Part shown: piece by piece, positions 1,315 to 31,146 of the stretch | How the letters are laid out: every line of letters starts with the position of its first letter | Position numbering within the stretch: position 1 is the first letter of the stretch | Assembly (NCBI GenBank): GCA_002868945.1 | Contig: PKTX01000055.1 | Span: 37,651 to 81,924 of the forward strand | DNA from: Desulfobulbaceae bacterium | GTDB taxonomy: Bacteria; Desulfobacterota; Desulfobulbia; Desulfobulbales; SURF-16 | DNA length: 44,274 nucleotides | Direction of reading: 5' to 3' | Position numbers and translations under genes: made by a program | The notes under the pieces: model-generated | Told to the model about the DNA's origin: nothing | Seen by the model: only the letters and a program-made list of their open reading frames with translations | Databases searched by the model: none

Positions 1315-3512
<2,198 letters not shown>

Positions 3513-6123: not shown

Positions 6124-6831
6124 TCACAGACCTTTCTTCGGAGCGCCACTGTGGCTCGGTTCCATTAATTCCTTAAAGAAGATGATGGAAGGAAAGTTGG
6201 CGGAATAGAGGGTGGGCAGCCTGCTGCTTGATTTGGCAACAAAGATGAGGTGGCCGATGCCATAGGCGGCGGCACTGGCCAAGACCCGTTCATTATCATC
6301 GGCCAGCAGGGTTCTCTTTTTGTCATAGGCGATCCTGCCCTGCAATTTTTCCCAGAAGAGCGGCTCTTCCTTGGCCAGCCCTATTTCATCGGCACAGATC
6401 AGCTCATCAAACTCCCGGGCCAGCTTGGTTTTGGCCATTTTGATGGCCAAGGTCTTGGGGTGGGCATTGGTCACCAGATATATTCGCTTGCCATGATTTC
6501 GACAAAACTCGAGAAATTCAAGGACATATGGATGAATGGCAATAAGATGATCAACCTCTTTCTTGAGCCTTTCGATATCGAGATCAAGCTGTTCCGACCA
6601 AAAATCAAGGTCGGTCCAGGCCAGGCCCCCCTCCTGTTCCTTATATTTGGCCAGCAGTTCCTCTTCCGCCGTAAAGATGGAGATATTATTCTGGCTGGCG
6701 TAGACCTCGGGCACATACTGCTCCCAGAAATAGTCATCAAAATGCTTATCCAGCAAGGTGCCGTCCATATCCAGCAGCACGGTATCAATATCACGCCAAT
6801 CTATGACGGCCTCTCTCTTCTTGTTACGCAT
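6124..6831 (-). CDS. HAD-family hydrolase, GMP/IMP nucleotidase (YrfG)-like
   Basis: A 235-residue haloacid-dehalogenase-fold phosphatase. Motif I DMDGTL follows an N-terminal DWRDIDTVLL that closely resembles E. coli YrfG. Motif II is LVTNAH, motif III the lysine in GLAKEEPLFW, and motif IV LLADDNERVL. The cap insertion contains YFWEQYVPE and LDFWSEQLDLD, again YrfG-like. YrfG dephosphorylates GMP and IMP. I start at the ATG at 6831 (MRNKKREAV), with AGGGAG just upstream, overlapping the YkgJ gene by 8 bases; the longer frame runs into that gene. Last gene of the pyrK operon, so a nucleotide-related role fits, though substrate specificity is inferred. Confidence 0.85.
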   Translation of the reverse strand: MRNKKREAVIDWRDIDTVLLDMDGTLLDKHFDDYFWEQYVPEVYASQNNISIFTAEEELLAKYKEQEGGLAWTDLDFWSEQLDLDIERLKKEVDHLIAIHPYVLEFLEFCRNHGKRIYLVTNAHPKTLAIKMAKTKLAREFDELICADEIGLAKEEPLFWEKLQGRIAYDKKRTLLADDNERVLASAAAYGIGHLIFVAKSSSRLPTLYSANFPSIIFFKELMEPSHSGAPKKGL

Positions 6832-7573
6832 GGCTCCCTTTTCCGTTAAGGATATCCTCCACTCTTTTTCCTGCAATGTTCTCCTGCAATACCGACTGGA
6901 TAAAGCTGCTGACCTGGTCATACTCATCATCTGGTATGAGAAAGCCAGGCAAGGGCCGCGCCTTTTTTAAGCGCGCCCTGGCCTGAGCGATGCAGGAGGC
7001 GGAGGCCAGGCAGCGGGCCGTGGCCTCCTTATCGACGTGGTCACAGAGGGCAAGCAGCACGTCATAAAGGTTACCCCAGTATTGTCCCTGGCCGATATGT
7101 TCGATGAGCTGCTGGCCGGCCGTGCTCGCCGTAATGTAATAGGCAGGCAGCTCGGCGCTGTCACCCTGCCTACAGGTGTGCAGCGAAGCCATGCAGCGGC
7201 AGGCAAAGGGCCGTACCGGATAGATCCGGCACCTCTCCTCCTGCAGAAAGAGGCAGGCCCGGCCCCTTGTGGTTGCCGTCGCCTCAGCCATCTCCTGTCT
7301 GCCAGTCAAGCATTGTTCAGCAAACTCATTGGTGGTTTGTAAAGGCTGGCGGCCAGCAGGGGCGCTCTCCAATTTTGCCGCCAACCAGGCCTTAAGCCCA
7401 TGGTGGCGCACATAGTCATGGATCAGGTCAGCCTCCACCGCCGTAACGTTGACATTTTGCGTACAACAGACACTACAGCCTTCGTGGCAGGCCAGGTTCA
7501 AGGAGCTGGCCGACAGCCAGCGGTCAAAGCTGTGGTAGACCACGGCCACAAGATCTTGACGGATATGGCTCAT
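6824..7573 (-). CDS. YkgJ family cysteine-cluster protein
   Basis: A 249-residue protein of the YkgJ/CxxCxxCC family, thought to bind zinc or an iron-sulfur cluster. The N-terminal cluster CHEGCSVCC (about residues 29-37) and the central CLFLQEERCRIYPVRPFACRC block carry the family's conserved cysteines, including the YPxRPxxCR motif. The function is not established. It begins at an ATGA overlap with the YkvA gene upstream and overlaps the HAD gene downstream, so it is part of a tightly coupled operon with pyrK-pyrD. A role in metal handling for those enzymes would be speculation. Confidence 0.85.
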   Translation of the reverse strand: MSHIRQDLVAVVYHSFDRWLSASSLNLACHEGCSVCCTQNVNVTAVEADLIHDYVRHHGLKAWLAAKLESAPAGRQPLQTTNEFAEQCLTGRQEMAEATATTRGRACLFLQEERCRIYPVRPFACRCMASLHTCRQGDSAELPAYYITASTAGQQLIEHIGQGQYWGNLYDVLLALCDHVDKEATARCLASASCIAQARARLKKARPLPGFLIPDDEYDQVSSFIQSVLQENIAGKRVEDILNGKGSHA

Positions 7574-20289: not shown

Positions 20290-21267
20290 TTACAAAAGAG
20301 AGAGCTGCTTTTCAACAAACTGGGCTGGCAGGGGCAGATAGCCGTCCTTGACAACAATCTCCTGACCCTCCTTGGAGAGGACGAATTTGAGAAATTCCCT
20401 GGTCAGAGTGGGCAAAGGCTGGTTGGGCTCCTTCACCACATAGATGTACAGGGTCCTGGCCAGCGGATATCTGCCACTCAGGACATTTTCATAGTTGGGG
20501 GCATAGGCCTCTTCACCCTCCTTGGCGGAGAGGGCCAGGGCCTTGACTCCGGAGGTCCGATAGCCGATACCGGAATAGCCGATGGCGGCACTATCCTCGG
20601 TAACAGCCATAACAACCGAGGCGGAACCGGGCTGCTCCTTGACCGTATCCTTGTAATCACCCTTAAAGAGGGCCTTTTTCTTGAAATAACCATAGGTGCC
20701 GGAGGCGGAATTACGGCCATATATACTGATGCCGGCCTGCTGCCATTGGCCGGTGAGGCCAAGCCCTCCCCAGGTGGAGATATCAGCCAGACCGCCCTTA
20801 CGCGTCTTGGAGAAAACAGCGTCAACCTGGGGCAGAGACATAGCCTCAAGGGGGTTGTCCTTGTGGACATAGACGGCGAGGGAGTCAAGGGCGACGCCGA
20901 TGCGGGTGGGCTTGAAGCCGTATTTGGCCTCAAACTTGTCCTCCTCGACATTTTTCATGGCCCTGGACATGGGGCCCAGCTGGGCGGTACCGGCGATCAG
21001 GGCCGGTGGTGCGGTGGAGGAACCCTTGCCCTCGACCTGAATTCTGACGTTGGGATATTTTTTGCGAAAGGACTCGGCCCAATAGGTCATCAGATTATTA
21101 AGGGTGTCGGAACCGATGGAGTTGAGGTTGCCGGAAACACCGCTGGTTTTCCGGTACTCCTTGATATCGGCATCAACCGTGGTGGCGGCGCCGGCCATGG
21201 AAAGGCTGCTCAGAGTGGCGGCGCCGACCAGCGCGGCAAAGATAAGGGGGCGAATAGGTGACTTCAT
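20290..21267 (-). CDS. pstS: Phosphate-binding periplasmic protein PstS
   Basis: A 325-residue periplasmic phosphate receptor. It begins with a signal peptide (MKSPIRPLIFAALVGAATLS, predicted cleavage after SMAGA). The mature part shows the binding residues typical of PstS: GSDTLNN near the start, GKGSSTAPPAL, and RNSASGTYGYF. The chosen ATG at 21267 has AAAGGAGA 8 bases upstream. The frame stays open for another 68 codons upstream, but that part precedes a clear Shine-Dalgarno and signal peptide, so I leave it out. First gene of the pst-pho operon. Confidence 0.95.
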   Translation of the reverse strand: MKSPIRPLIFAALVGAATLSSLSMAGAATTVDADIKEYRKTSGVSGNLNSIGSDTLNNLMTYWAESFRKKYPNVRIQVEGKGSSTAPPALIAGTAQLGPMSRAMKNVEEDKFEAKYGFKPTRIGVALDSLAVYVHKDNPLEAMSLPQVDAVFSKTRKGGLADISTWGGLGLTGQWQQAGISIYGRNSASGTYGYFKKKALFKGDYKDTVKEQPGSASVVMAVTEDSAAIGYSGIGYRTSGVKALALSAKEGEEAYAPNYENVLSGRYPLARTLYIYVVKEPNQPLPTLTREFLKFVLSKEGQEIVVKDGYLPLPAQFVEKQLSLL

Positions 21268-21705
21268 CAATGTTTCTCCTTTGGTAAGTGGCGTTCCAAC
21301 AAGGATTCGTTTTGAGGTACGGCAGGGGGCCACAATAAGCACGGGCATCTTTTTAAAATTGCCGAGATTATCTTTAAGCACCACGCCGTGATCGCCCAAA
21401 AGGCCTTTGCTGGTCAGGCACTGATTGTGATGGGGCATAGATACTTCTGCCCGGGACCATACGAGCCGCATGTGCGGTACCAGGGCTGATAGTGCCAGGC
21501 CGATATTATGAAAATGTTAAAAAAAAATGATGATTCGATGAAATCGACCGAACCTTTTTCAACATCGGCAATGTCTATTATTATGCCGCATCAAACAAAG
21601 GATAACTGTGCCAGGCAAATGTTAAGATTGTGTTAAAAATGGCCCGGGCAAATAAAAAAAATGCTTCCCACTGAAACTCAGCCATCCGTAAAGAGGAAAA
21701 GGTCT
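21268..21705. other. Divergent pstS/msrAB intergenic region with long pstS leader
   Basis: These 438 bases separate pstS (minus) from msrAB (plus). The half nearest pstS is GC-balanced leader with small hairpins (for example GGGCA/TGCCC at about 21434-21453) but no riboswitch I can name. The half nearest msrAB (21500-21660) is AT-rich and carries TTAACA repeats that could bind PhoB (annotated separately). The exact start sites of either gene cannot be read. Confidence 0.5.
21620..21636 (-). promoter_or_regulatory. Candidate PHO box (TTAACA-N5-TTAACA)
   Basis: On the minus strand, TTAACA-CAATC-TTAACA gives two direct repeats with the 11-base period used by PhoB/PhoP-type regulators. A further TTAACA lies at 21515-21520. 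The site is upstream of pstS, whose operon also encodes the regulator. It is identical in layout to the Bacillus PhoP box consensus TT(A/T/C)ACA-N5 repeats. Binding is not shown, and the distance to pstS (about 350 bases) implies a long leader. Confidence 0.45.
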
Positions 21706-22755
21706 ATGAATATGAAAGGGATAACAAAGAAACTGTGCTACTCGCTCCTTGTTTTACTGGCCCTGCCCGTTGTCAGCCACGGCAACAGACGGCTGGAAAA
21801 GGCCACCTTTGCCGGCGGCTGTTTCTGGTGCATGGAGGCTCCTTTTGAAAAGCTGCCTGGGGTGACGACCGTGGTCAGCGGCTACAGCGGCGGCAACACG
21901 GCAAACCCCACCTATGAGGAGGTCTCGGCCGGCAACAGCGGTCACCTGGAGGTGGTGCAGATAGAGTATGACCCGCAAGAGGTGAGCTATGCAGAGCTCC
22001 TGGAGGTCTTCTGGCGCCAGGTGGACCCCACCGACCAGGGCGGCCAGTTTGTTGATCGCGGCAGTCAATACGCCACCGCCATCTTCTACCACAACGAGGA
22101 GCAGCGTCTGGCGGCCCGCAAATCGCGGCAAGCCCTGGCGGCAAGCGGTCGATATGATGGCGATATTGTCACCCCCATCCTGGCGGCCCAGCCCTTTTAT
22201 GCGGCCGAGGAGTATCATCAGGATTATTACAGGGAAAACCCCATCCGCTATAAGTTCTACCGCTATCGTTCCGGCCGCGACGACTTTCTGGACAAGGTGT
22301 GGGGTGAGGAGAAAAACAACCCGGAGGCTCAATTACCCGAACGGCTCACCGACCTGCAGTACAAGGTGGTGCGTGAAAACGGCACGGAGCCACCCTTTGA
22401 CAACGAATACTGGGACAACAAGAGGGCGGGTATCTATGTAGATATCGTCTCCGGCGCACCCCTCTTCAGCTCCACGGACAAGTATGATTCAGGCACGGGC
22501 TGGCCCAGCTTCACCAGGCCCATTGAGCCGGAAAACCTGAAAGAGGTACAGGACCGCAGCCTGTGGAGGACGCGCACCGAGGTGCGCGGCGTCAAGGCCG
22601 ACACCCACCTGGGCCATGTCTTTGACGATGGACCGCCTCCCAGCGGTCGGCGCTACTGCATCAACTCCGCGGCCCTGCGCTTTATTCCCCAAGAAAGGTT
22701 GGCGGCAGAGGGCTATGGCAACTACCTGTCGCTCTTTGGGCCGGACAAGGAGTGA
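21706..22755 (+). CDS. msrAB: Fused peptide-methionine sulfoxide reductase MsrA-MsrB, exported
   Basis: A 349-residue bifunctional repair enzyme reducing both S- and R-methionine sulfoxide in proteins. An N-terminal signal/anchor ([20 protein letters not shown]) indicates the periplasm. MsrA (about 30-200) has the catalytic C42 in GGCFWC. MsrB (about 208-345) has [12 protein letters not shown] and the catalytic cysteine in [12 protein letters not shown]. The CxxC zinc pairs of many MsrB proteins are absent, and the serine/threonine at positions often occupied by a resolving cysteine suggests reduction by an external thiol donor. The start is ATG 21706 with GAGGAAAAGG upstream; ATG at 21712 is equally possible. 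It is divergent from pstS. Confidence 0.95.
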
Positions 22756-22792
22756 TGGTCTGGCAACGCCAAGAAAAAGGCTTCGCCCCTCC

Positions 22793-23560
22793 TTATGAGG
22801 CAGGCTGATCAGGCACCACCAGCAGTCGCCCCTTATGACGGACAATATCCACCTGCACGTCGTAGACGGCGGAAATCATCTCCGTCGTGAGCTGCTCCGG
22901 GCTGCCGGCGGCAAAGACCCTGCCCTGCCGGACCAGAAGAAAGCGGTCCATGAAGCGCAGGGCCAGATTAAGATCATGCAGGGTAATGACCACGCCCACC
23001 CGCTGCTCATCGGCCACCCGGCGGATGATCTGCAGGATCTCAAGCTGGTTTTTGAGATCCAGGCTGCTGGTGGGTTCATCAAGCAGAAGCACCCTGGGCT
23101 CCTGAACCAGTGCCCTGGCAATACAGACCTTCTGCAGTTCACCGCCGCTCAGCTCATCGGTACGGCGCAGGGCCAGGTGAGCCAGCCCCAGCCGGCGCAG
23201 GGCGCCATCGGTTTTCTGCAGATCCGCGCGGCTGCTGTGCCAGCGCAGGTGGGGCTTTCTCCCCAGCAGTACCGCATCAAAAGCTGTCATGCCAGCCCCT
23301 TCGGCCCGTTGGCTGACATAACCAAAATTCCTGGCAATCTTCTGCTTGGCCATTGCCGCCACCTTGATGTTGTCAAGAAGCACCTGGCCGGACCAGGGCC
23401 TGAGCATGGCATTGACACAGCGCAACAGGCTGGTTTTGCCCACGCCATTGGGACCCAGAATCGTCAGAATCTGGCCGGGTTGCAGGGTAAAACCGAGATC
23501 ATGGAGAATGATGCGGCCGTTGCTGTAGCCCATGCGCAGCTTGTCAACCTCCAGCATCAT
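22793..23560 (-). CDS. FecE/BtuD-type ABC transporter ATPase
   Basis: A 255-residue ATPase of the iron-siderophore/B12/metal import class. Walker A is GPNGVGKTS, the signature ELSGGELQKV, Walker B PRVLLLDEPTSSLD, and the H-loop ITLHDLNLAL. The QRAEGAGMTAFDAVLLGRKPH region is typical of FecE. It starts at the ATG overlapping the permease stop by one base (TGATG). Last gene of the DUF4198-FmdE-ABC operon, so it likely drives import of whatever the periplasmic partner binds. Confidence 0.94.
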   Translation of the reverse strand: MMLEVDKLRMGYSNGRIILHDLGFTLQPGQILTILGPNGVGKTSLLRCVNAMLRPWSGQVLLDNIKVAAMAKQKIARNFGYVSQRAEGAGMTAFDAVLLGRKPHLRWHSSRADLQKTDGALRRLGLAHLALRRTDELSGGELQKVCIARALVQEPRVLLLDEPTSSLDLKNQLEILQIIRRVADEQRVGVVITLHDLNLALRFMDRFLLVRQGRVFAAGSPEQLTTEMISAVYDVQVDIVRHKGRLLVVPDQPAS

Positions 23561-24630
23561 CACCTTTGCCTGCTGATCAGAATAGAGAGAAAGGCCGGCG
23601 CCCCCAGAAAGGCGGTGAGAATCGCCACCGGCAAGACATGCGGTGCCAACAGCTGCCGGGCCGCCGTATCTGCCGCCAGGAGGAGGGCCGCGCCCACCAG
23701 GGCGGCGCCAGGCATGACAAAACGATGGTCGTCGCCGATAAGCCGTCGCACCACATGGGGACAGATGAGGCCGACAAAGCCGATTATACCCAGAAAGGAG
23801 ACAATGCAGGCTGTCACGGCCGAGGCCGTGATCATGCCCAACAGCCGCACCCGCTCCACCCGCACTCCAAGACTGCGGGCCGTTTCATCGCCGGCCGCCA
23901 TGGCGTTGTAATTCCAGCGGTTGCACGCAAAAAAGAGCAGGGCAGCAGCCACCATGACCGCCATGATAGCCACCTCGCGCCAGCCGGCCCGGCCGCTATC
24001 ACCAAAGCTCCAGAAGAGCATGGCTGCCAGCTGCACATCATCGGCAAAATATTGCAGGAACATGGTGCCGGCTGAACAGAGGGCCCCCAGGGCCACGCCG
24101 CTCAACACCATGACCTCGGGCGTGGCACCGCGCCGTCCGGCAATGGCGATAATAACCAGGGAGATGAGCATACAGCCGGCAAAGGCGCTGGCCGTGGTGA
24201 GCCACGGCTTGACAATGGTCAGCACGGTTGTCTGGCCGGGCTGCATAAAACCGCTGCCCAGCACCATCACGGCAAAGGCGGCGCCAAAGGCCCCGGCCTG
24301 GGAAAGTCCCAGGGTAAAGGGCGACCCCAGAGGGTTACGCAGGATCGACTGCATGGCGGCTCCGGCTGCCGCCAAGCCGGCCCCGGCCAACAGCGCTGCC
24401 AGGGCCTGAGGCAGTCTGATGTTGAAAATGATGATACGCAGGCGCTCATCGCTTGCCGAACCTACCAGGGTGCGCAACACCTCTGGCACGGGCAGGCGAA
24501 CCGGCCCCAGGGAGACGGCCATGATCAACAGACCAGCACAGAGCAGGCTCAAACCGGCCAGGAAGATGACCTTGCCGGCCAGGTAGTTTCCATATGCCAC
24601 CCAGAGGCGTTCTTCATCAAGAGACGACAT
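23560..24630 (-). CDS. FecCD/BtuC-type ABC transporter permease
   Basis: A 356-residue polytopic membrane protein of the FecCD family with about nine or ten predicted spans. Characteristic segments are LAALLAGAGLAAAGAAMQSILRNPLGSPFTLGLS, the cytoplasmic coupling region AAGDETARSLGV, and GFVGLICPHVVRRLIGDDHR near the C-terminus. It starts at ATG 24630 (MSSLDEERLW), 5 bases before the end boundary of the binding-protein gene. The upstream extension is poorly hydrophobic and lies inside the neighbour. It forms the channel for the operon's ABC importer. Confidence 0.93.
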   Translation of the reverse strand: MSSLDEERLWVAYGNYLAGKVIFLAGLSLLCAGLLIMAVSLGPVRLPVPEVLRTLVGSASDERLRIIIFNIRLPQALAALLAGAGLAAAGAAMQSILRNPLGSPFTLGLSQAGAFGAAFAVMVLGSGFMQPGQTTVLTIVKPWLTTASAFAGCMLISLVIIAIAGRRGATPEVMVLSGVALGALCSAGTMFLQYFADDVQLAAMLFWSFGDSGRAGWREVAIMAVMVAAALLFFACNRWNYNAMAAGDETARSLGVRVERVRLLGMITASAVTACIVSFLGIIGFVGLICPHVVRRLIGDDHRFVMPGAALVGAALLLAADTAARQLLAPHVLPVAILTAFLGAPAFLSILISRQR

Positions 24631-24634
24631 GCTG

Positions 24635-25798
24635 TCAACGGAGTTCCAGGCGATTGAAGGGCAGGCCGCCATACTGCGCCTGCAGGCGGGCAAAGGCCCG
24701 AGCCCCGTTCAGAAACAGGGAGATCTCCTCGGCCCGGGCCAGGGGCTCGATATCGGCAAAGTGTTGCGGGTAAAGAACCTTGCCCACATAATAGGCATTG
24801 GCAAAGATGGTTTCAAAGTTCTGGGTGTAGGAGTTGTAGGGAAAGAGACCGTAGATCCGAGACCACCGCACGGCAGACAGGGCCTGGTAGGCGGCATCGT
24901 TACGCAGCTCATCCAAGGCATTGCTGCCGGCGGCCAGGGCCATGGTGGAAAGATCCACAAAAATCACCTGCGGGTCACGCCGGACAATGAGCTCCTTGGC
25001 CACCATGGCATGGGAAAGGGGCCGGTCGCCAGGAGTCGGAGCGGCAATGTTGTCGGTACCGGTAAAGACAAAGGGTGCAAAGGAGGGCTCGGTGGACTGA
25101 AAACCCTGGGGACCACGCTGCCCCAAACCACCGACATAGCAGGAGGGCCGCTCTGTTACCGGAATATTACTGGTACGCCGGCGCAGGTCCTCCTCCATGG
25201 CCGTGAAAAAGGCAATTACCTTTTCGGCCCGCTCCTGCCGGCCCAGGACAGCAGCCATCAGACGCAGGGCCTGCTCAAGATGAGGCCGGCCGTAGGTAAG
25301 GTTGCCATACTCCAGGGTAATCACCGGAATACCGGTCTTGGCCTGGAGCCGATCAGCATCCTGGCCGGCAAAGGTCTTGAAGATCACCTGGGGTTGAGGC
25401 TGCAGGGCGGCGATGAGCTCCGGGTTGTCACGGCCGCGGAATTGGCCGAAAAGGGGATAGGTGGCAAACTGCGGATTGGCCATGGCATAGGGCCTGGCAT
25501 CAATGGGGGCAGGGCCCTGCTCAATGCTGTCCACCGCCACAATGCAATCCTGGGCCTGCAGATAGGTGAGCAGCCGCAGACAGCCGGGGCCGGAACAGAT
25601 CACCCGTTCCACCTGGTCGGCAATGGTGACCCGACGACCGGCCGCATCCCTAATGGTGCGGGCCGCCTGGGCCTGCGTTACCAAGGCCAGGAGGACAAGG
25701 AGGCAACCCATCACCCGGAAAAAACGGGGCAGGCCAGGCCCCTTGCCCCGATGTTGTTGGCAGGATCGGCCCCGAACAGGTGTGCGGATATGGTTCAT
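24635..25798 (-). CDS. Periplasmic metal/siderophore-type substrate-binding protein
   Basis: A 387-residue protein of the TroA/FepB-like cluster. A long basic n-region (1-28) leads into a signal peptide (VMGCLLVLLALVTQAQA), with mature start near ARTIRDAAGRRV. The RDAAGRRVTI and VERVICSGPGCLRLLTYL segments are the normal N-lobe opening of this class. It shares an ATGA overlap with the FmdE gene. This class binds ferric siderophores, haem, cobalamin or, in some operons, nickel, molybdate or tungstate. The operon context and operator favour nickel, as discussed in the findings. Confidence 0.88.
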   Translation of the reverse strand: MNHIRTPVRGRSCQQHRGKGPGLPRFFRVMGCLLVLLALVTQAQAARTIRDAAGRRVTIADQVERVICSGPGCLRLLTYLQAQDCIVAVDSIEQGPAPIDARPYAMANPQFATYPLFGQFRGRDNPELIAALQPQPQVIFKTFAGQDADRLQAKTGIPVITLEYGNLTYGRPHLEQALRLMAAVLGRQERAEKVIAFFTAMEEDLRRRTSNIPVTERPSCYVGGLGQRGPQGFQSTEPSFAPFVFTGTDNIAAPTPGDRPLSHAMVAKELIVRRDPQVIFVDLSTMALAAGSNALDELRNDAAYQALSAVRWSRIYGLFPYNSYTQNFETIFANAYYVGKVLYPQHFADIEPLARAEEISLFLNGARAFARLQAQYGGLPFNRLELR

Positions 25799-26370
25799 TT
25801 CGGCCAGCCCCGCTCATAGTCGACCAAACAGTCGAGACAGACCGTTTGGCCATCCTGGAACCGGGCCGATTGTTCGGTGCAGCTCTCGCCGCACTGCCGA
25901 CACACCACGGCGGCAAGGAGGCGCGCCCGGCTCGGCGCTTCATAGGACGGCTCCTTGAAGTCAAAGAGCTCGGCAAGGGGGGCTGTGAGAATATGGCTCT
26001 GCAGGGCCTGACGATCCATGTCAGCGGCGGACAACGGTTTTTTAAAGACCAGACGGATGGCGCCGCCGCTTGTGCGACAGAAAAAGGTGAAGGCCATTTT
26101 ACCGCGATCACGCCACAGGAGGTTCCCCTTGCCCACTGTACAGCCGGTCAAGACCTGCACCGCATCCACACCGCAGGCATCGTTTTCGCTGACGCAGACC
26201 ACCTCCTCATCCGTGGCAAAAGAGAGGCCGAGCCGTTGGCCGGCCGCCTCGCAGGCCCGCACGCCAATGGCCAGCCCCGGACAGCTGTGACCATGAAATT
26301 CCCGGCAGCGCTGCCAGGCACCGGCCAGGGTGGTAGACATGGCTGTCTCTGTTTTATCGTGACTCTGCAT
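25795..26370 (-). CDS. FmdE-family protein with C-terminal zinc ribbon
   Basis: A 191-residue member of the FmdE family, named from the molybdenum formylmethanofuran dehydrogenase operon. The N-terminal FHGHSCPGLAIGVRA motif, NDACGVDAVQVLTGCTVGKGNL and the following beta region are conserved hallmarks. The C-terminal CRQCGESC...CLDCL is a four-cysteine zinc ribbon. The biochemical function is unknown; the family recurs beside metal transporters and metalloenzymes. I start at ATG 26370, with AAAGGAGG about 10 bases upstream; a longer reading would overlap the DUF4198 gene. It is overlapped by the binding-protein gene (ATGA). Confidence 0.9.
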   Translation of the reverse strand: MQSHDKTETAMSTTLAGAWQRCREFHGHSCPGLAIGVRACEAAGQRLGLSFATDEEVVCVSENDACGVDAVQVLTGCTVGKGNLLWRDRGKMAFTFFCRTSGGAIRLVFKKPLSAADMDRQALQSHILTAPLAELFDFKEPSYEAPSRARLLAAVVCRQCGESCTEQSARFQDGQTVCLDCLVDYERGWPK

Positions 26371-26404
26371 GGTTATCCCGCCTCCTTTGCAGCAGTGGAG
26401 ATGA

Positions 26405-27187
26405 TTACCTCTCCTGCTCATAGTCATCCATGTAGATCCAGAGCACGGCGCCCAGCTCCACCGGCTTAGGCGTGCCACTTGGGTCAGGCAGGGTGTAGTC
26501 GGCCTCGTTTAAGGCGGCAAAGCCCCACCAGCCGGCCCGCGGACACGTAAAGGTGAAGACGCCGTTTTCATCAGCCTTGACCACCTGGGTGACATGGTAG
26601 TCACTGGGGGCCTTGAGATGACCATCCTGGTTATAAAACTCCACCTCCACCTCGGCGCCCGGTACCGGGCGGCCGCCCAGCAGCACCTGGCCACTGAAGC
26701 TGTTGCCGGCATAGTTGGCAAAGGGCCGCGTCAGGGGGATTATTTCGGTGGGCAGACCCACGGCCTCATCCCAGCCGCTATCAGCGCCATAGGCGGCGAT
26801 AATGGTCTTGGTGTAATGGACGATGGAAAGATCCTCGGCCGCCTCCCAATAGGGCGTGGGCTCCATGACAACGTGATAGACACCGGGCCGCGTCACCCGG
26901 TAGAGGGTCTGCCAGGCCTGGTGTTCCATCACCGTGGCAGATTTAAGGAACGGAGCGAGATCCTGTCGCCTCTCGTTGCTTATCACATAAAACTGCTCCG
27001 GTTTGGCCAGATCCATGCCGATTATCTCAAAGGGGTGAGAAAAGGAGAGGTTGAACTCCACATTCCTGCTCTCCTGGGTCACCACGTTTGTCGATGGCAC
27101 AACCATACCGAAATGGGCCTGGGCCTGGCCGGCTGTAGCCACGAGAGCAACTCCCAGTGCCAGTCCCAACACGTTTTTCCTCACCAT
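26405..27187 (-). CDS. DUF4198 family periplasmic protein (NikK/NikM-associated type)
   Basis: A 260-residue exported protein. The signal peptide MVRKNVLGLALGVALVATAG ends at QAQA, leaving the mature start HFGMVVPSTN, a histidine-first N-terminus typical of DUF4198 and suitable for metal binding. An Ig-like/carboxypeptidase-regulatory-like beta domain follows (GQVLLGGRPVPGAEVEVEFYN, ENGVFTFTCPRAGWWGFAAL). DUF4198 proteins often accompany nickel or cobalt uptake systems. It heads the operon DUF4198-FmdE-binding protein-permease-ATPase, behind a promoter and operator at 27234-27273. The metal choice is inferred from context. Confidence 0.88.
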   Translation of the reverse strand: MVRKNVLGLALGVALVATAGQAQAHFGMVVPSTNVVTQESRNVEFNLSFSHPFEIIGMDLAKPEQFYVISNERRQDLAPFLKSATVMEHQAWQTLYRVTRPGVYHVVMEPTPYWEAAEDLSIVHYTKTIIAAYGADSGWDEAVGLPTEIIPLTRPFANYAGNSFSGQVLLGGRPVPGAEVEVEFYNQDGHLKAPSDYHVTQVVKADENGVFTFTCPRAGWWGFAALNEADYTLPDPSGTPKPVELGAVLWIYMDDYEQER

Positions 27188-27233
27188 TTTCTCACCTCTC
27201 TGCCGCAGCCCGAACCAGGGGCCGCGTCTTGTT

Positions 27234-27260
27234 GTGTTACCTTTTTCTATAAAGTATTAC
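27234..27260 (-). promoter_or_regulatory. Candidate NikR-type operator overlapping the DUF4198 operon promoter
   Basis: On the minus strand, GTAATAC-N13-GTAACAC (plus: GTGTTAC 27234-27240, GTATTAC 27254-27260). I recall a comparative-genomics NikR consensus for Desulfovibrio of GTGTTAC-N13/14-GTAACAC; this site matches 12 of 14 positions with the right spacing. It covers the predicted -10, as a repressor site should. The consensus is from memory and needs checking. Confidence 0.5.
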
Positions 27261-27273
27261 CGCCGATTCACAA
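27246..27273 (-). promoter_or_regulatory. Candidate promoter of the DUF4198-FmdE-ABC operon
   Basis: The minus strand reads TTGTGA (27273-27268), a 16-base spacer, and TATAGA (27251-27246). Transcription would begin near 27239, giving a leader of about 50 bases before the ATG at 27187. It lies inside the GTGTTAC/GTATTAC pair, supporting a repressor-controlled promoter. Confidence 0.45.
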
Positions 27274-27296
27274 AAAAGGGCTTGTCGCCCTAAGCA

Positions 27297-27323
27297 GTAA
27301 CACTAGTTGAATTTTTGTGTTAC
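27297..27323. promoter_or_regulatory. Second half-site pair GTAACAC-N13-GTGTTAC
   Basis: An exact inverted repeat, GTAACAC (27297-27303) and GTGTTAC (27317-27323), with the same 13-base spacer as the promoter-proximal pair and a further GTTAC at 27333. The orientation is everted relative to the recalled NikR consensus, so it could be an auxiliary or unrelated site. Confidence 0.35.
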
Positions 27324-27386
27324 AAAACCACTGTTACCCACTCTTGTCAACTGATATTTGCCTGAAAAAAAAGAGTGGGTGCCGGT

Positions 27387-27413
27387 GACAACAACGGCCG
27401 TGCCCTTGTTGTC
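27387..27413 (-). terminator. Possible terminator downstream of mscS
   Basis: An 8-bp stem GACAACAA/TTGTTGTC closes an 11-base GC-rich loop and is followed about 17 bases later, in the minus direction, by a run of eight T. A second inverted repeat (ACCCACTCTT 27336-27345 with 27371-27380) overlaps that T-run. It is a plausible but not canonical terminator. Confidence 0.35.
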
Positions 27414-27447
27414 AAGAAATGGAGGCGCCGCAGAAGTGCCGGTCTTG

Positions 27448-28977
27448 TCAGGGATGGTTCTTGCGAATAAGGCGTTTGATAAACCTGCGGATATCACCCA
27501 GGCTGGTGGGTTTAGAGTCGCTCTGTGAATCAGCGATCTGCAGCATTTCAGCCTCATCAAGACGCTGCTTGATAATTGAGGCATAATAATCCGCCAGATC
27601 AGGATGGTTGCGCAACACCTCCTGCATACAGCTCATGTCCACCCTGATCAGGGTAACATCCGTGCCGGCAATGTATTCAAAAAGGGAGGGATGTTCGGTG
27701 AACATGGAGATCAGGCCGAAGTACTGGCCGGCCACCAGTTCGTTGCCCACCATCTTTTCGCCATTGGGCAGTTTAATGCGCGACTCAACCAGGCCGCTGG
27801 TAATAATATCCAGGGCGTCACTGCTGTCGCCTTCCAGCAAAATGGTGCTGCCCGCATCAAAATGGAGTTGATGGCTGGCAAGGGCAATATCATCAATCTC
27901 CTTGTCACTCAGGGAAGAAAAGATGTCGAGACTCTTCAGGGCAAGCTGGATGGTGGAAGGCTCGGCAGTCGGGATCTCCGCCCGCCTGGTCCGCCACTCC
28001 TGGACATTGACAGCCGGGGTGACGCCGGCCCTGGCCAGCACATAATGAATCTCGCGATACAACTCTTCCCGGCCGCGGAACATGGCCGGATAGTTGGCAA
28101 AATGGACCCAGACCATATAGGTATACGGCAGGGTGGAGGCATCGGTGAGACGGACAACCGGAGCCGGATATTTGAGGTTATGCTTGCAGTTGTAGACGGC
28201 CTCCAGCAAAAGCTCCTTGGCAAGACGGGGGTCCACCTCAGCCGGGATCTTAACAAAATACCAGGGCCGATAGCGGTGATGCTGGCCATGCAGGTTTTTA
28301 AAGCCCTGGGAGGCCAGGCGGGCATTGGGGATGACATAGGTGGTATTGTCCCAGCCGTGCAGCCAGGTGGCCCGCCAGTTGATATCAATGATCTGCCCCT
28401 CGGTGCCGTCGTCCAGGCGCAACCAATCTCCCACCCGAAAGGCGCCTTCCAGACTCAGGGCAACGCCGGAGAAAAAGTCCCCCAGGGTCTGCTGCAGGGC
28501 AAAACCGAGCAGGGCAGTGGCCAGACCGGTGGAAATCCAGACACCGGTCAGTGAATAGCCCTGTACCCAGAAGAAGACGCCCAGGCCTATAAGCAGGCAG
28601 GTGCCGGTGATGACGCCATGCAGCAGGCCCGGAACCGCCTGGGGATGAGAACGCCGTTCACCCACATAGCGATGCGACAGATAGGCCTGGCCAACCTTGG
28701 CGACAAACCAGCCGACAACCAGGCAGAAACCCAGAACGGCAAAAGACGACAGGAGCTGCCGCCAACCGGGCACAATGAAAGAGAGAAGGGTGAAAAAAAA
28801 GAGTAGAAGTATGGGGCCAGAGAAGAGACCGACAAGGGCCTCAGCCAGTGATTCGTTGCCTTCACCGGAGCGCCTGGCCCAAAGGCGACGCACCAAAAAG
28901 GCCAGCGCCGCCGTCAGCGTAACCAAGAGGCTGACCACAGGATGGGCGTGATACAGATCAACTGCTCTTTGTAACAT
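27448..28977 (-). CDS. MscS-family mechanosensitive channel with C-terminal cyclic-nucleotide-binding fold
   Basis: A 509-residue channel of the bCNG subgroup. Four or more membrane spans occupy about 15-175; the pore helix ends at LGFALQQTLGDFFSGVALSL; the MscS beta domain follows (GDWLRLDDGTEGQIIDINWR, VIPNARLASQGF). A cNMP-binding fold covers about 365-480 (DAGSTILLEGDSSDALDIITSGLV). In the phosphate-binding cassette the canonical glutamate and arginine are missing: FGLISMFTEHPSLFEYIAG stands where FGE...R(S/T)A is expected. Classical cAMP binding is therefore doubtful. It lies downstream of the ectoine operon on the same strand and would release osmolytes on hypo-osmotic shock. Confidence 0.9.
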   Translation of the reverse strand: MLQRAVDLYHAHPVVSLLVTLTAALAFLVRRLWARRSGEGNESLAEALVGLFSGPILLLFFFTLLSFIVPGWRQLLSSFAVLGFCLVVGWFVAKVGQAYLSHRYVGERRSHPQAVPGLLHGVITGTCLLIGLGVFFWVQGYSLTGVWISTGLATALLGFALQQTLGDFFSGVALSLEGAFRVGDWLRLDDGTEGQIIDINWRATWLHGWDNTTYVIPNARLASQGFKNLHGQHHRYRPWYFVKIPAEVDPRLAKELLLEAVYNCKHNLKYPAPVVRLTDASTLPYTYMVWVHFANYPAMFRGREELYREIHYVLARAGVTPAVNVQEWRTRRAEIPTAEPSTIQLALKSLDIFSSLSDKEIDDIALASHQLHFDAGSTILLEGDSSDALDIITSGLVESRIKLPNGEKMVGNELVAGQYFGLISMFTEHPSLFEYIAGTDVTLIRVDMSCMQEVLRNHPDLADYYASIIKQRLDEAEMLQIADSQSDSKPTSLGDIRRFIKRLIRKNHP

Positions 28978-29338
28978 TATGCCCTCGCTAGGCTAGGCTA
29001 CGGCCGGCAACCGTTCTTTGAGCCAGCTCGCCATGACCGCTTCTTTTCGCAGCTCGGTTGCCCGGCAGCTCTCGGGGTCGGACTGCAGCCGCCAGCGCCG
29101 CATCAGGCAAGACATGATTGTAACGTTCGCCACTTATTTCATCGTGGCGGCATGGCCTGGCAGTTCTAAGTACAGCCTTGTTTTCTCGCGGTGGGTTGAG
29201 ATGGAACGCCGGGAGGCAGCAACCCCCTCACAGGGGAGTGATGCCTCATCAAAGCGTCCACCGCGGCTTTGTCTGGAAAGAGAAACAGTGTGGCCGCCGT
29301 CATTGTGGGGAGTGTCACGTTCCCTCGCGGCTCAGGTG
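28978..29338. other. Intergenic region between ask and mscS
   Basis: 361 bases separate the ectoine aspartokinase gene from mscS, both on minus. The left part contains a possible 40-codon gene (annotated separately). The right part includes a short hairpin CCCCTCACAGGGG (near 29223-29238) and no recognisable riboswitch, terminator with U-tract, or promoter. Whether mscS is cotranscribed with ectABC-ask cannot be told. Confidence 0.4.
28993..29115 (-). CDS. Possible 40-residue basic small protein upstream of mscS
   Basis: An open frame MSCLMRRWRLQSDPESCRAT... of 40 codons ends in TAG 15 bases before the mscS ATG. It is basic and amphipathic, with two cysteines, and I recognise no family. No Shine-Dalgarno precedes its ATG, which weakens the case. 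Its position would allow coupling to mscS translation. It could equally be a chance frame. Confidence 0.25.
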   Translation of the reverse strand: MSCLMRRWRLQSDPESCRATELRKEAVMASWLKERLPAVA

Positions 29339-30754
29339 TTATACCCTGCCCACCTCCACTAAATTCTTGTGCAGGGCAATGATCGCCTTCTGAAAATCCT
29401 CCTCTTCCACGACAAACTGGATATCCACCTGACGCATGCACTTGTGCAGACCCAAAATCTCCACGCCGGCATTGGCCAGGGCATTGACGGCCGTGGGCAG
29501 CACCCAGGTATCCGCCATGTTGGTGCCGATGGCCGACACCAGGGCCACCTTTTTAACGAGGATGTCGGCGGTGGGAAAGGATCTTTTTATGCCGTCGGTC
29601 AGCTGTTTGACCCGGGCCAGGGGGGCGGCAACATAGTGGGTAATGGTGTTGGCATTGGTATCCTTGGCCAGATAACGTATCTTCTGGTCGGTAAAATGGC
29701 GCAGCATCACCGCGTCATGATCCCAGCGTCCCACCATGTCCTGGTCCCAGACCTCTATACCGGTGACCCCTTTACGGCCGGCAATGATCTCCACCTTGGC
29801 ATCCGGACTCTTATAGTCATTGGTGATCAGGGTACCGGGATGATCCGGCTCAAAAACATTCTTGATACGCAGGGGAATATCGGTTTTACGCATTCCCTTG
29901 GCGGCACCGGGATGGATGGCCTCCATCCCCAGGTCGGAGAGTTGATCTGCCACGTCATAGTTGGTGGCGCCGATCACCTCCACCTTGTCCTCACCCACCA
30001 TTTTGGGATCACCACTGCTCAGGTGATACTCCTTATGGATAATACCCTCCCGGGCACCGGTGAGCACCGCAACCCGGCTGAAGGTGATTTCCGTATAGCC
30101 CCGGTCATAGGTATTCATGATCCCTTCCTCACACTGGGTGTAACCGGTGACAATGGGCAATTCATGGGCCAGGTCTATTTCACTGAAATATTTCTTGATC
30201 TTGTCATCAAGACAGAGCTGCTCCGTCTCCATCCAGCCGGAAAGGTCAATGAAGCGGGCATTAACCCCCTTATCCTTAAGAATCAGGTAGCTGTTATGGG
30301 CACTGTGGGCCTCGCCGATGGCCGACAGCATCTCGCGCACGGTCATCAGATGTTCATCAAGCTGAAAATGGCCAAAGGAGCAGAGACGGGTAAGATCCAG
30401 CAGACAGCTGCGCACCCCCTCGATCCTCTCCTTAACAAAGCGATCGGCCTGCATGACATCAAGGCCGAGTCCCTCAAAACCCTTGTTGATGGCGCACATT
30501 TCATGCCCCACCCGGCTGATGGCATCCCCCCAGGCCCACGAGTCGTCATCCTTGGAGAACAGAGAATAGACCCCTGATTTACTGGTCTTTTTATGCTCCA
30601 ACAGCTCATTGGTGATGCCGCCGTAGGCCGACACCACGATAATCCTGTTATAGAGCTCTTCTTCGCTGCGGTCGCCAATGAGAATATTGTCCAGCACATC
30701 GCCGAACTGACTCATGGAGGTACCGCCTATCTTTTCTACAGTATGGTTGCCCAT
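29339..30754 (-). CDS. ask: Aspartate kinase, ectoine-specific (Ask_Ect)
   Basis: A 471-residue aspartokinase supplying aspartyl phosphate for ectoine. The kinase opening KIGGTSMSQFG and the following VVSAYGGITNELLEHKK are typical of the Ask_Ect group, which differs from the lysine/threonine-regulated enzymes in length and ACT arrangement (C-terminal ACT region about 330-470). Ask_Ect enzymes are generally insensitive to lysine/threonine feedback, fitting constitutive osmolyte synthesis. It starts at ATG 30754, with GAGGAG 6 bases upstream, just overlapping the end region of ectC. It is last of ectA-ectB-ectC-ask. Confidence 0.95.
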   Translation of the reverse strand: MGNHTVEKIGGTSMSQFGDVLDNILIGDRSEEELYNRIIVVSAYGGITNELLEHKKTSKSGVYSLFSKDDDSWAWGDAISRVGHEMCAINKGFEGLGLDVMQADRFVKERIEGVRSCLLDLTRLCSFGHFQLDEHLMTVREMLSAIGEAHSAHNSYLILKDKGVNARFIDLSGWMETEQLCLDDKIKKYFSEIDLAHELPIVTGYTQCEEGIMNTYDRGYTEITFSRVAVLTGAREGIIHKEYHLSSGDPKMVGEDKVEVIGATNYDVADQLSDLGMEAIHPGAAKGMRKTDIPLRIKNVFEPDHPGTLITNDYKSPDAKVEIIAGRKGVTGIEVWDQDMVGRWDHDAVMLRHFTDQKIRYLAKDTNANTITHYVAAPLARVKQLTDGIKRSFPTADILVKKVALVSAIGTNMADTWVLPTAVNALANAGVEILGLHKCMRQVDIQFVVEEEDFQKAIIALHKNLVEVGRV

Positions 30755-30756
30755 CA

Positions 30757-31146
30757 CTACTCCTCAACTAATTCATAGGCCCCGTCGCTGTCATGTGTTT
30801 CACGACCGGTGACCGGCGGATTAAAGGCGCAGATGAGACGCATGTCTTCACTGCCCCCCTTTAAGATGTGGCGGTCATGGTTGTTGAGGGCATAAATAAC
30901 CCCGTCATGGATATCGTGGACCTCGCCGGTGGCAAGATCCTCGATGGTGCCGTTGCCGGCCACGCAGTAAACCGCCTCCAGATGATTTTTATACCAGAAT
31001 TCATGCTCACTGCCGGCGGCGATGATCGTCTCATGAAAGGAGAATCCCATGCCGTCCTTCTTGAGCAGAAGGCGGCGGCTGGTCCAGCCGTCGCCCTTGA
31101 CCTCGCGTTCCGAATCGATAATGTCCTGTATGTCCCTGACGATCAT
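30757..31146 (-). CDS. ectC: L-ectoine synthase EctC
   Basis: A 129-residue cupin-fold lyase closing N-gamma-acetyl-diaminobutyrate to ectoine with loss of water. It begins [20 protein letters not shown] and contains [33 protein letters not shown] and the late [16 protein letters not shown] segment, all strongly conserved in EctC, including the metal-ligand residues. Length is normal. The start ATG overlaps the ectB stop by one base (TAATG). Confidence 0.97.

Follow-up and report, generated by a model that had tools for sequence, protein, structure and literature searches.

A probable NikR-repressed nickel-acquisition operon combining a NikK-like protein, FmdE and a Fec-type importer in a Desulfobulbaceae bacterium

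What does a Fec-type importer carry when it is encoded together with a DUF4198 protein and an FmdE-family protein, and what controls its expression? The question is raised by an operon in a 44,274-nucleotide stretch of the genome of a Desulfobulbaceae bacterium (assembly GCA_002868945.1, contig PKTX01000055.1, positions 37,651 to 81,924 of the forward strand), the whole of which is referred to here as the window. Five closely packed genes run on the minus strand from 27187 down to 22793, in the order nikK(DUF4198)-fmdE-fecB-fecC-fecE. Our analysis points to a NikR-repressed nickel-acquisition operon, a reading to which we give a probability of about 0.8. Expression under NikR is well supported by comparison of the operator sequences, and nickel transport by the operon is what we infer from the regulator, the gene neighbours and the NikK and FmdE families. 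The genes of the operon are as follows.

26405-27187, minus strand: nikK-like gene for a secreted DUF4198 protein of 260 amino acids (PF10670, 2.5e-61)
25795-26370, minus strand: fmdE-like gene, 191 amino acids (PF02663, 1.4e-35)
24635-25798, minus strand: fecB-type substrate-binding protein gene, 387 amino acids (PF01497, 1.5e-13)
23560-24630, minus strand: FecCD-type permease gene, 356 amino acids, with its ATG at 24630 (PF01032, 2e-84)
22793-23563, minus strand: FecE-type ATPase gene, 256 amino acids (PF00005, 2.1e-31)

The junctions are tight, with a 4-base overlap between fmdE and fecB, a 4-base gap between fecB and fecC, and an overlap between fecC and fecE. A PF01497 binding protein, a PF01032 permease and a PF00005 ATPase in one operon make up a Fec-type (BtuCD-F-like) ATP-binding cassette importer; the permease gene is single, so the permease would be a homodimer. 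A preliminary description of this DNA had placed the DUF4198 protein, FmdE and the importer in one operon, and the domain matches and tight same-strand junctions confirm this arrangement.

To define the control region, the sequence upstream of nikK and the remainder of the genome were searched for NikR-type operators. Two sites were found before the operon, separated by a hairpin.

27297-27323, minus strand: operator 1, GTAACAC-N13-GTGTTAC, a perfect site at -136 to -110 from the nikK start
27234-27260, minus strand: operator 2, GTAATAC-N13-GTAACAC, a weaker site at -73 to -47 from the nikK start
27277-27291, minus strand: terminator-like hairpin between the operators, a 5-bp stem followed by a T run (consensus match only)

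The delta-proteobacterial NikR signal was given in a 2004 study as GTGTTAC-N13/14-GTAACAC, and Table 4 of that study lists the signal of Desulfotalea psychrophila in reversed form, GTAACAC-N13-GTGTTAC; the study also gives two reversed NikR sites for the D. psychrophila cluster 422176-177 (PMC545781). Operator 1 is identical to this reversed signal in both half-sites and in the spacer. Within the 3.7-Mb genome, GTRWYAC-N13-GTRWYAC was matched perfectly at two places only, the two operators of the operon, and with one mismatch at 10 more, including the nikR and nikM promoters on contig 57; the remaining one-mismatch matches lie mostly within genes. There is one nikR gene in the genome (C57:54659-54886, E 6.8e-34 to NikR_C), followed on that contig by nikM, a nikL-like gene, nikQ and nikO, and nikK is absent from that operon. 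The name NikL is used here on the basis of position and similarity to the NikL of relatives, the sole Pfam match of the protein being below the cut-off. The genome also encodes [NiFe] hydrogenase large subunits. A nikR gene and the motif at known nickel genes, two of the checks named in the preliminary description, were both found. The operator which that description had reported is real and corresponds to operator 2, whose sequence has 1 exact match in the window, but the better, perfect site 63 bp further upstream had been overlooked. An overlap of promoter and operator, also proposed there, was not confirmed, as a consensus scan detected no sigma-70-like promoter in the intergenic region. 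Judged from the sequence, the hairpin is probably the terminator of the upstream mscS-type gene; alternatively, it may belong to the leader of the operon. The 63-bp offset of the two operators amounts to about six helical turns, but values between 53 and 172 bp occur in relatives, and we make no claim of fixed helical phasing.

We next examined whether the operator recurs across the class. Of 242 genomes drawn from it, 43 encode a binding-protein relative with an E value no higher than 1e-20. Group 1 comprised the 33 genomes with a binding protein of at least 45% identity, and group 2 the rest, with 32-38% identity. As a reference, 16 nik loci were analyzed (one from this genome and 15 from relatives). 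A site with at most one mismatch and a spacer of 13 preceded the operon in 13/16 of these loci, while each of the other 15 spacers gave 0-1/16; the loci lacking a site (L158, L166 and L167) have a more distant NikM (38-49% identity). The same type of site was present at spacer 13 in 18/32 group-1 fecBCE promoters, with 0-1/32 at each of 15 other spacers and a mean of 0.02/32 in dinucleotide shuffles of these promoters; one locus (L075), in which the gene is cut by a contig end, was excluded from the promoter counts. A matrix was then built from 15 nik-operon sites only, and its threshold was set at the 99% level of 1696 control windows from which operators had been kept out. With this matrix, 27/32 group-1 promoters scored above the control level, as did 1/32 of the reversed strings. 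No site was found in the group-2 fecBCE operons (0/7), where matrix scores were low even over the 1600 bp scanned. Chance occurrence of the motif was rejected by the spacer, shuffle, reversed-string and group-2 controls. Taken with the loci outside the class given below, the pattern suggests that NikR control of the operon is common in the class, patchy beyond it and not universal.

Several further sites of this type were observed. At C41:8419-8445 of this genome (L147), an intergenic one-mismatch site lies about 75 bp before an open reading frame for a membrane transporter that is YeeE-like by eye. In two loci with a fecBCE operon, a perfect NikR-type site precedes the adjoining gene for a protein of about 200 amino acids (L065, site 2044-2070, gene 2429-3031 on the plus strand; L064, site 7019-7045, gene 6303-6908 on the minus strand). 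These proteins show a weak likeness to FmdE (L065, PF02663 E 0.0066, below the cut-off; L064, no family) and lack its metal-binding residues as judged by eye; their gene is a possible further NikR target. In a Spirochaetales bin (L227), a perfect variant inverted repeat, GTGCTAC-N13-GTAGCAC, lies about 87 bp upstream of fecB and suggests a NikR operator with shifted specificity.

The gene neighbourhoods of the best 80 of 432 binding-protein relatives in named genomes were then compared, many of these loci ending at contig ends. The relatives are mostly from Desulfobacterota, with others from Synergistales, Spirochaetes, Planctomycetota, Bacteroidales and one Methanolobus bin; culturable species that have the operon include Desulfofustis glycolicus DSM 9705 (L226) and Desulfogranum marinum DSM 2058 (L229). 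A nik gene or nikR was located nearby in 4/80 loci: nikM-nikL-nikQ-nikO-fecB-fecC-fecE-fmdE are contiguous and in one direction in L176, fecBCE-fmdE is followed by nikL-nikQ-nikO in L216, nikR lies directly after fecBCE in L249, from a genome of the same genus (G119), and nikR lies about 3 kb upstream of fecBCE in L180. The fmdE gene adjoins the importer genes, on either side, in most of the 80 loci. In the window, the gene before the operon encodes an MscS-type channel that has a cyclic-nucleotide domain; the gene after it, which converges with the operon, encodes a methionine sulfoxide reductase. A search of plasmids revealed distant relatives, all below 40% identity among the 8 matches listed of 171.

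The first gene of the operon is the single PF10670 copy in this genome. In relatives, DUF4198 counterparts with 54-70% identity are located within nikM+nikL operons, mostly together with nikQ and nikO (L154, L156, L158-L162, L165 and L169). Because these counterparts lie in nikMLKQO operons while the nikMLQO operon of this genome is without K, the DUF4198 protein is probably a displaced NikK, and it would serve NikMLQO. It matches NikK by position and sequence, and the operator is that of the known NikKMLQO systems and the delta-proteobacterial NikR regulon, including the reversed D. psychrophila form (PMC545781; PMC2667541). Unlike in those systems, NikK here is apart from nikMLQO and is the first product of an operon that also encodes FmdE and a Fec-type importer; neither fecB nor fmdE occurs in PMC545781. 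In a genome of the same genus (G157), the nikK counterpart (74%) is solitary: two perfect sites precede it, no fmdE-fecBCE follows it, and a gene corresponding to the window's aspartokinase gene lies upstream. The likeliest history would be that, in this lineage, the fmdE-fecBCE block was captured downstream of a nikK promoter that was already in place.

The mature DUF4198 protein had been described as starting with HFG after its signal peptide. This was confirmed, with an AxA cleavage motif preceding it, and two histidines are conserved in an alignment of 31 rows, two of which are the window's own gene.

27113-27115, minus strand: His25, the N-terminal mature residue, after AQA; predicted metal ligand, conserved in 31/31 rows
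27035-27037, minus strand: His51 (mature residue 27, in an S-H-P-F motif); second candidate ligand, conserved in 31/31 rows

A DUF4198 protein of Ideonella sakaiensis binds nickel with a Kd of 18 nM through its N-terminal histidine (PMC12537917). The two proteins belong to the same Pfam family and share the N-terminal histidine after the signal peptide, and the Ideonella neighbourhood is reported to include NikR and TonB receptors. However, the second ligand is His18 in Ideonella as opposed to the conserved mature residue 27 here, so that the sites may differ, and the available part of that report mentions no Fec-type importer alongside.

The binding protein carries a conserved cysteine loop.

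25574-25597, minus strand: CSGPGCLR loop, residues 68-75 of the binding protein; signature of the NikR-linked branch

Cys68 is kept in 79/80 and Cys73 in 69/80 of the best 80 relatives. The CSGxGCLR loop occurs in nearly all group-1 members; the 7 aligned group-2 proteins have PLG-GALR or a similar sequence with no cysteines, and the 7 relatives without the cysteine loop are also without the operator. The structure of the protein was predicted from an alignment of 67 of the 80 relatives plus the window (pLDDT 91.8). In this model, Cys68 is at the end of strand 66-69, directly before helix 73-79, from which we would guess that it contacts the ligand. The top solved match was TM0189 of Thermotoga maritima (2ETV; Z 41.5, rmsd 1.7 over 327 residues; sequence E 3.4e-65), which differs in having VAVGPGALR, with no cysteines at the CSGxGC positions. 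The next structural matches were iron, siderophore and molybdate binders, followed by CeuE of Helicobacter pylori with Ni or Ni-His. Group 2 includes fmdE-fecBCE operons (L078-L084) whose FmdE is 54-67% identical to that of the window; they lack both the cysteine loop in the binding protein and a NikR-type operator, and the importer they encode is probably a related one that takes up a different metal or complex.

The FmdE protein retains the metal site of its family.

26281-26298, minus strand: FHGHSC motif (His26, His28, Cys30), three of the four metal-site ligands
26173-26175, minus strand: Cys66, the fourth metal-site ligand

All four ligands of the Zn/Ni site in 2GLZ are kept (sequence match E 2.8e-12); in an alignment of 32 rows, His26 and His28 are each present in 31/32 (one gap), and Cys30 and Cys66 in 32/32. 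In 2GLZ, FHGHxC and a later cysteine bind a mixed Zn/Ni ion, and most FmdE genes adjoin metal-ion transporter genes (PMC2954224). Four zinc-finger cysteines are also present, the FHGHxC plus Cys site and the C-terminal four-cysteine zinc finger being shared with the PF02663 structures 2GLZ, 2GVI and 3D00. For those structures the metal and role were left open (PMC2954224), whereas here NikR provides a link to nickel. The fmdE-like gene has AAAGGAGG before its ATG, and its 191-residue product has no visible signal peptide. In a tree whose set included one long-branched paralogue of this genome, FmdE of the window clustered with the FmdE of group-2 operons and not with group 1 (98/100); the operon is therefore a mosaic. 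Three more FmdE-family proteins are encoded in this genome (C19:10317, C83:114284 and C49:7853; L252, L253 and L255), and the gene at C49:7853 adjoins one for a membrane protein that by eye resembles TauE/TSUP.

A model of the system can be proposed as follows. When nickel is scarce, NikR would leave the operators. With its N-terminal histidine site, NikK would capture periplasmic Ni(II) and supply it to NikMLQO, and perhaps to FecB as well. The CSGxGCLR-type FecB would hand nickel, as the free ion or in a small chelate, to an ATP-driven (FecC)2(FecE)2 importer, and FmdE, as a cytoplasmic dimer with a His-His-Cys-Cys site, may receive or check the metal before [NiFe] hydrogenase maturation.

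Several observations weigh against assignment of the operon to nickel. Neither NikR (30/33 group-1 genomes vs 180/209 others) nor NikM (23/33 vs 104/209) discriminates genomes with the operon in the 242-genome draw, where the NikM query was of the NikKMLQO type and other NikM types may escape. In addition, 5/32 group-1 promoters are without a convincing site, and of 64 further loci from named genomes, outside the class (the 80 minus 15 repeating loci already counted and L211, which was too short), 15 scored above the 99% control level, with 1 reversed control above it. The DUF4198 protein of Ideonella binds Zn and Co as well (PMC12537917), and TM0189, the closest solved relative of the binding protein, is annotated only as a putative iron protein. 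Mutual exclusion with NikMNQO, considered as an argument for its replacement by the operon, is not supported, as NikM is commoner with the operon. Close NikM was missing in 8/28 group-1 genomes, which is only weak evidence of replacement because the presence of NikM and NikR does not track the operon; in the group-1 genomes without close NikM, [NiFe] hydrogenases were found in 9/9 searched (G186 included), and NicO was absent in 9/10 genomes searched, among them the present one.

The substrate might instead be cobalt, or cobalt together with nickel, with NikR control reflecting shared chemistry. H. pylori NiuBDE carries nickel, cobalt and bismuth (PMC5140060), and the B12 context of some NikK1ML1QO systems has led to their reassignment to cobalt (PMC2667541). 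However, the neighbours in relatives are nik genes, NikR-type operators recur at fecBCE promoters, and control by a cobalamin riboswitch was rejected, no Rfam match of any kind being found in 22500-28000 at E up to 1; we consider cobalt transport unlikely. Still less probable is that nikK alone is a nickel gene and that fmdE-fecBCE, placed behind the operator by chance, imports an iron-siderophore, molybdate, tungstate or a corrinoid. The solitary nikK of G157, the iron-siderophore and molybdate binders among the nearest folds of the binding protein and the naming of FmdE after Mo/W enzymes would fit such an arrangement; it is opposed by relatives in which fecB directly follows the operator without nikK and by the 4/80 loci that join fecB to nik genes or nikR. 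The 9 proteins scanned in 20290-30757, which covers the operon and its flanks, include no catalytic subunit of Fmd/Fwd formylmethanofuran dehydrogenase. A refinement of nickel import, rather than a full rival to it, is that the importer takes a nickel complex (a metallophore, Ni-histidine, or a Ni-thiolate or sulfide species) and not bare Ni(II). Fec-type proteins generally bind chelates, a structure of H. pylori CeuE contains a Ni-His complex (4LS3 title), and a reduced, sulfide-rich habitat is suggested by the names of relatives; the operon's five genes, however, include none for metallophore synthesis, and we regard this refinement as possible but somewhat doubtful. Nickel acquisition under NikR thus remains the preferred reading, and the importer assignment of the preliminary description is supported more strongly than it had been argued there, by nikR, the sites at nik genes, the same motif before related fecBCE operons and the nickel-binding DUF4198 family (PMC12537917).

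That description had also called the importer of a type not usually assigned to nickel. This part needs qualification, as Helicobacter NiuBDE (CeuE/FecDE) is a Fec-type importer for which nickel import was shown experimentally and whose genes are NikR targets (PMC5140060; 4LS3 and 4INP); Fec-type nickel import is therefore already known, and the operon is a variant of it. The binding protein has the same fold as CeuE of NiuBDE, a system known from H. pylori and H. mustelae (4LS3, Z 21.2, rmsd 4.2 over 293; 4INP, Z 21.2), but identity over the structural alignment is 13%, and a sequence search with a limit of E 0.1 yielded 10 sequences, none of them CeuE. NiuBDE also belongs to another lineage, the CSGxGCLR loop is a feature of the present system, and no FmdE or NikK is described with NiuBDE in the available text of PMC5140060. 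Among the titles and abstract openings searched, outside of which much subscription literature lies, no FmdE-linked Fec-type importer was assigned to nickel, and FecB, FmdE and DUF4198 do not occur in the available text of a paper on nickel in cable bacteria (PMC11247825). We tentatively propose that the operon represents a distinct, widespread family of nickel importers filed as iron-siderophore transporters, characterized by an ICSGxGCLR loop, a usual FmdE-type partner, NikR control in several lineages and a Cys68 that would coordinate nickel or nickel-thiolate, unlike the side chains of siderophore binders.

Many FecBCD-type operons in the genomes of anaerobes are annotated as iron or B12 uptake systems, and the combination of the CSGxGCLR signature, an FmdE partner and the operator would make it possible to assign many of them to nickel instead, which is the limiting metal for [NiFe] hydrogenases and CO dehydrogenases. 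FmdE proteins, recognized so far chiefly because their genes lie beside those for methanogenesis, would gain a testable role in metal handling, and nikK would be seen to pair in some cases with an ECF importer and in others with one of the Fec type.

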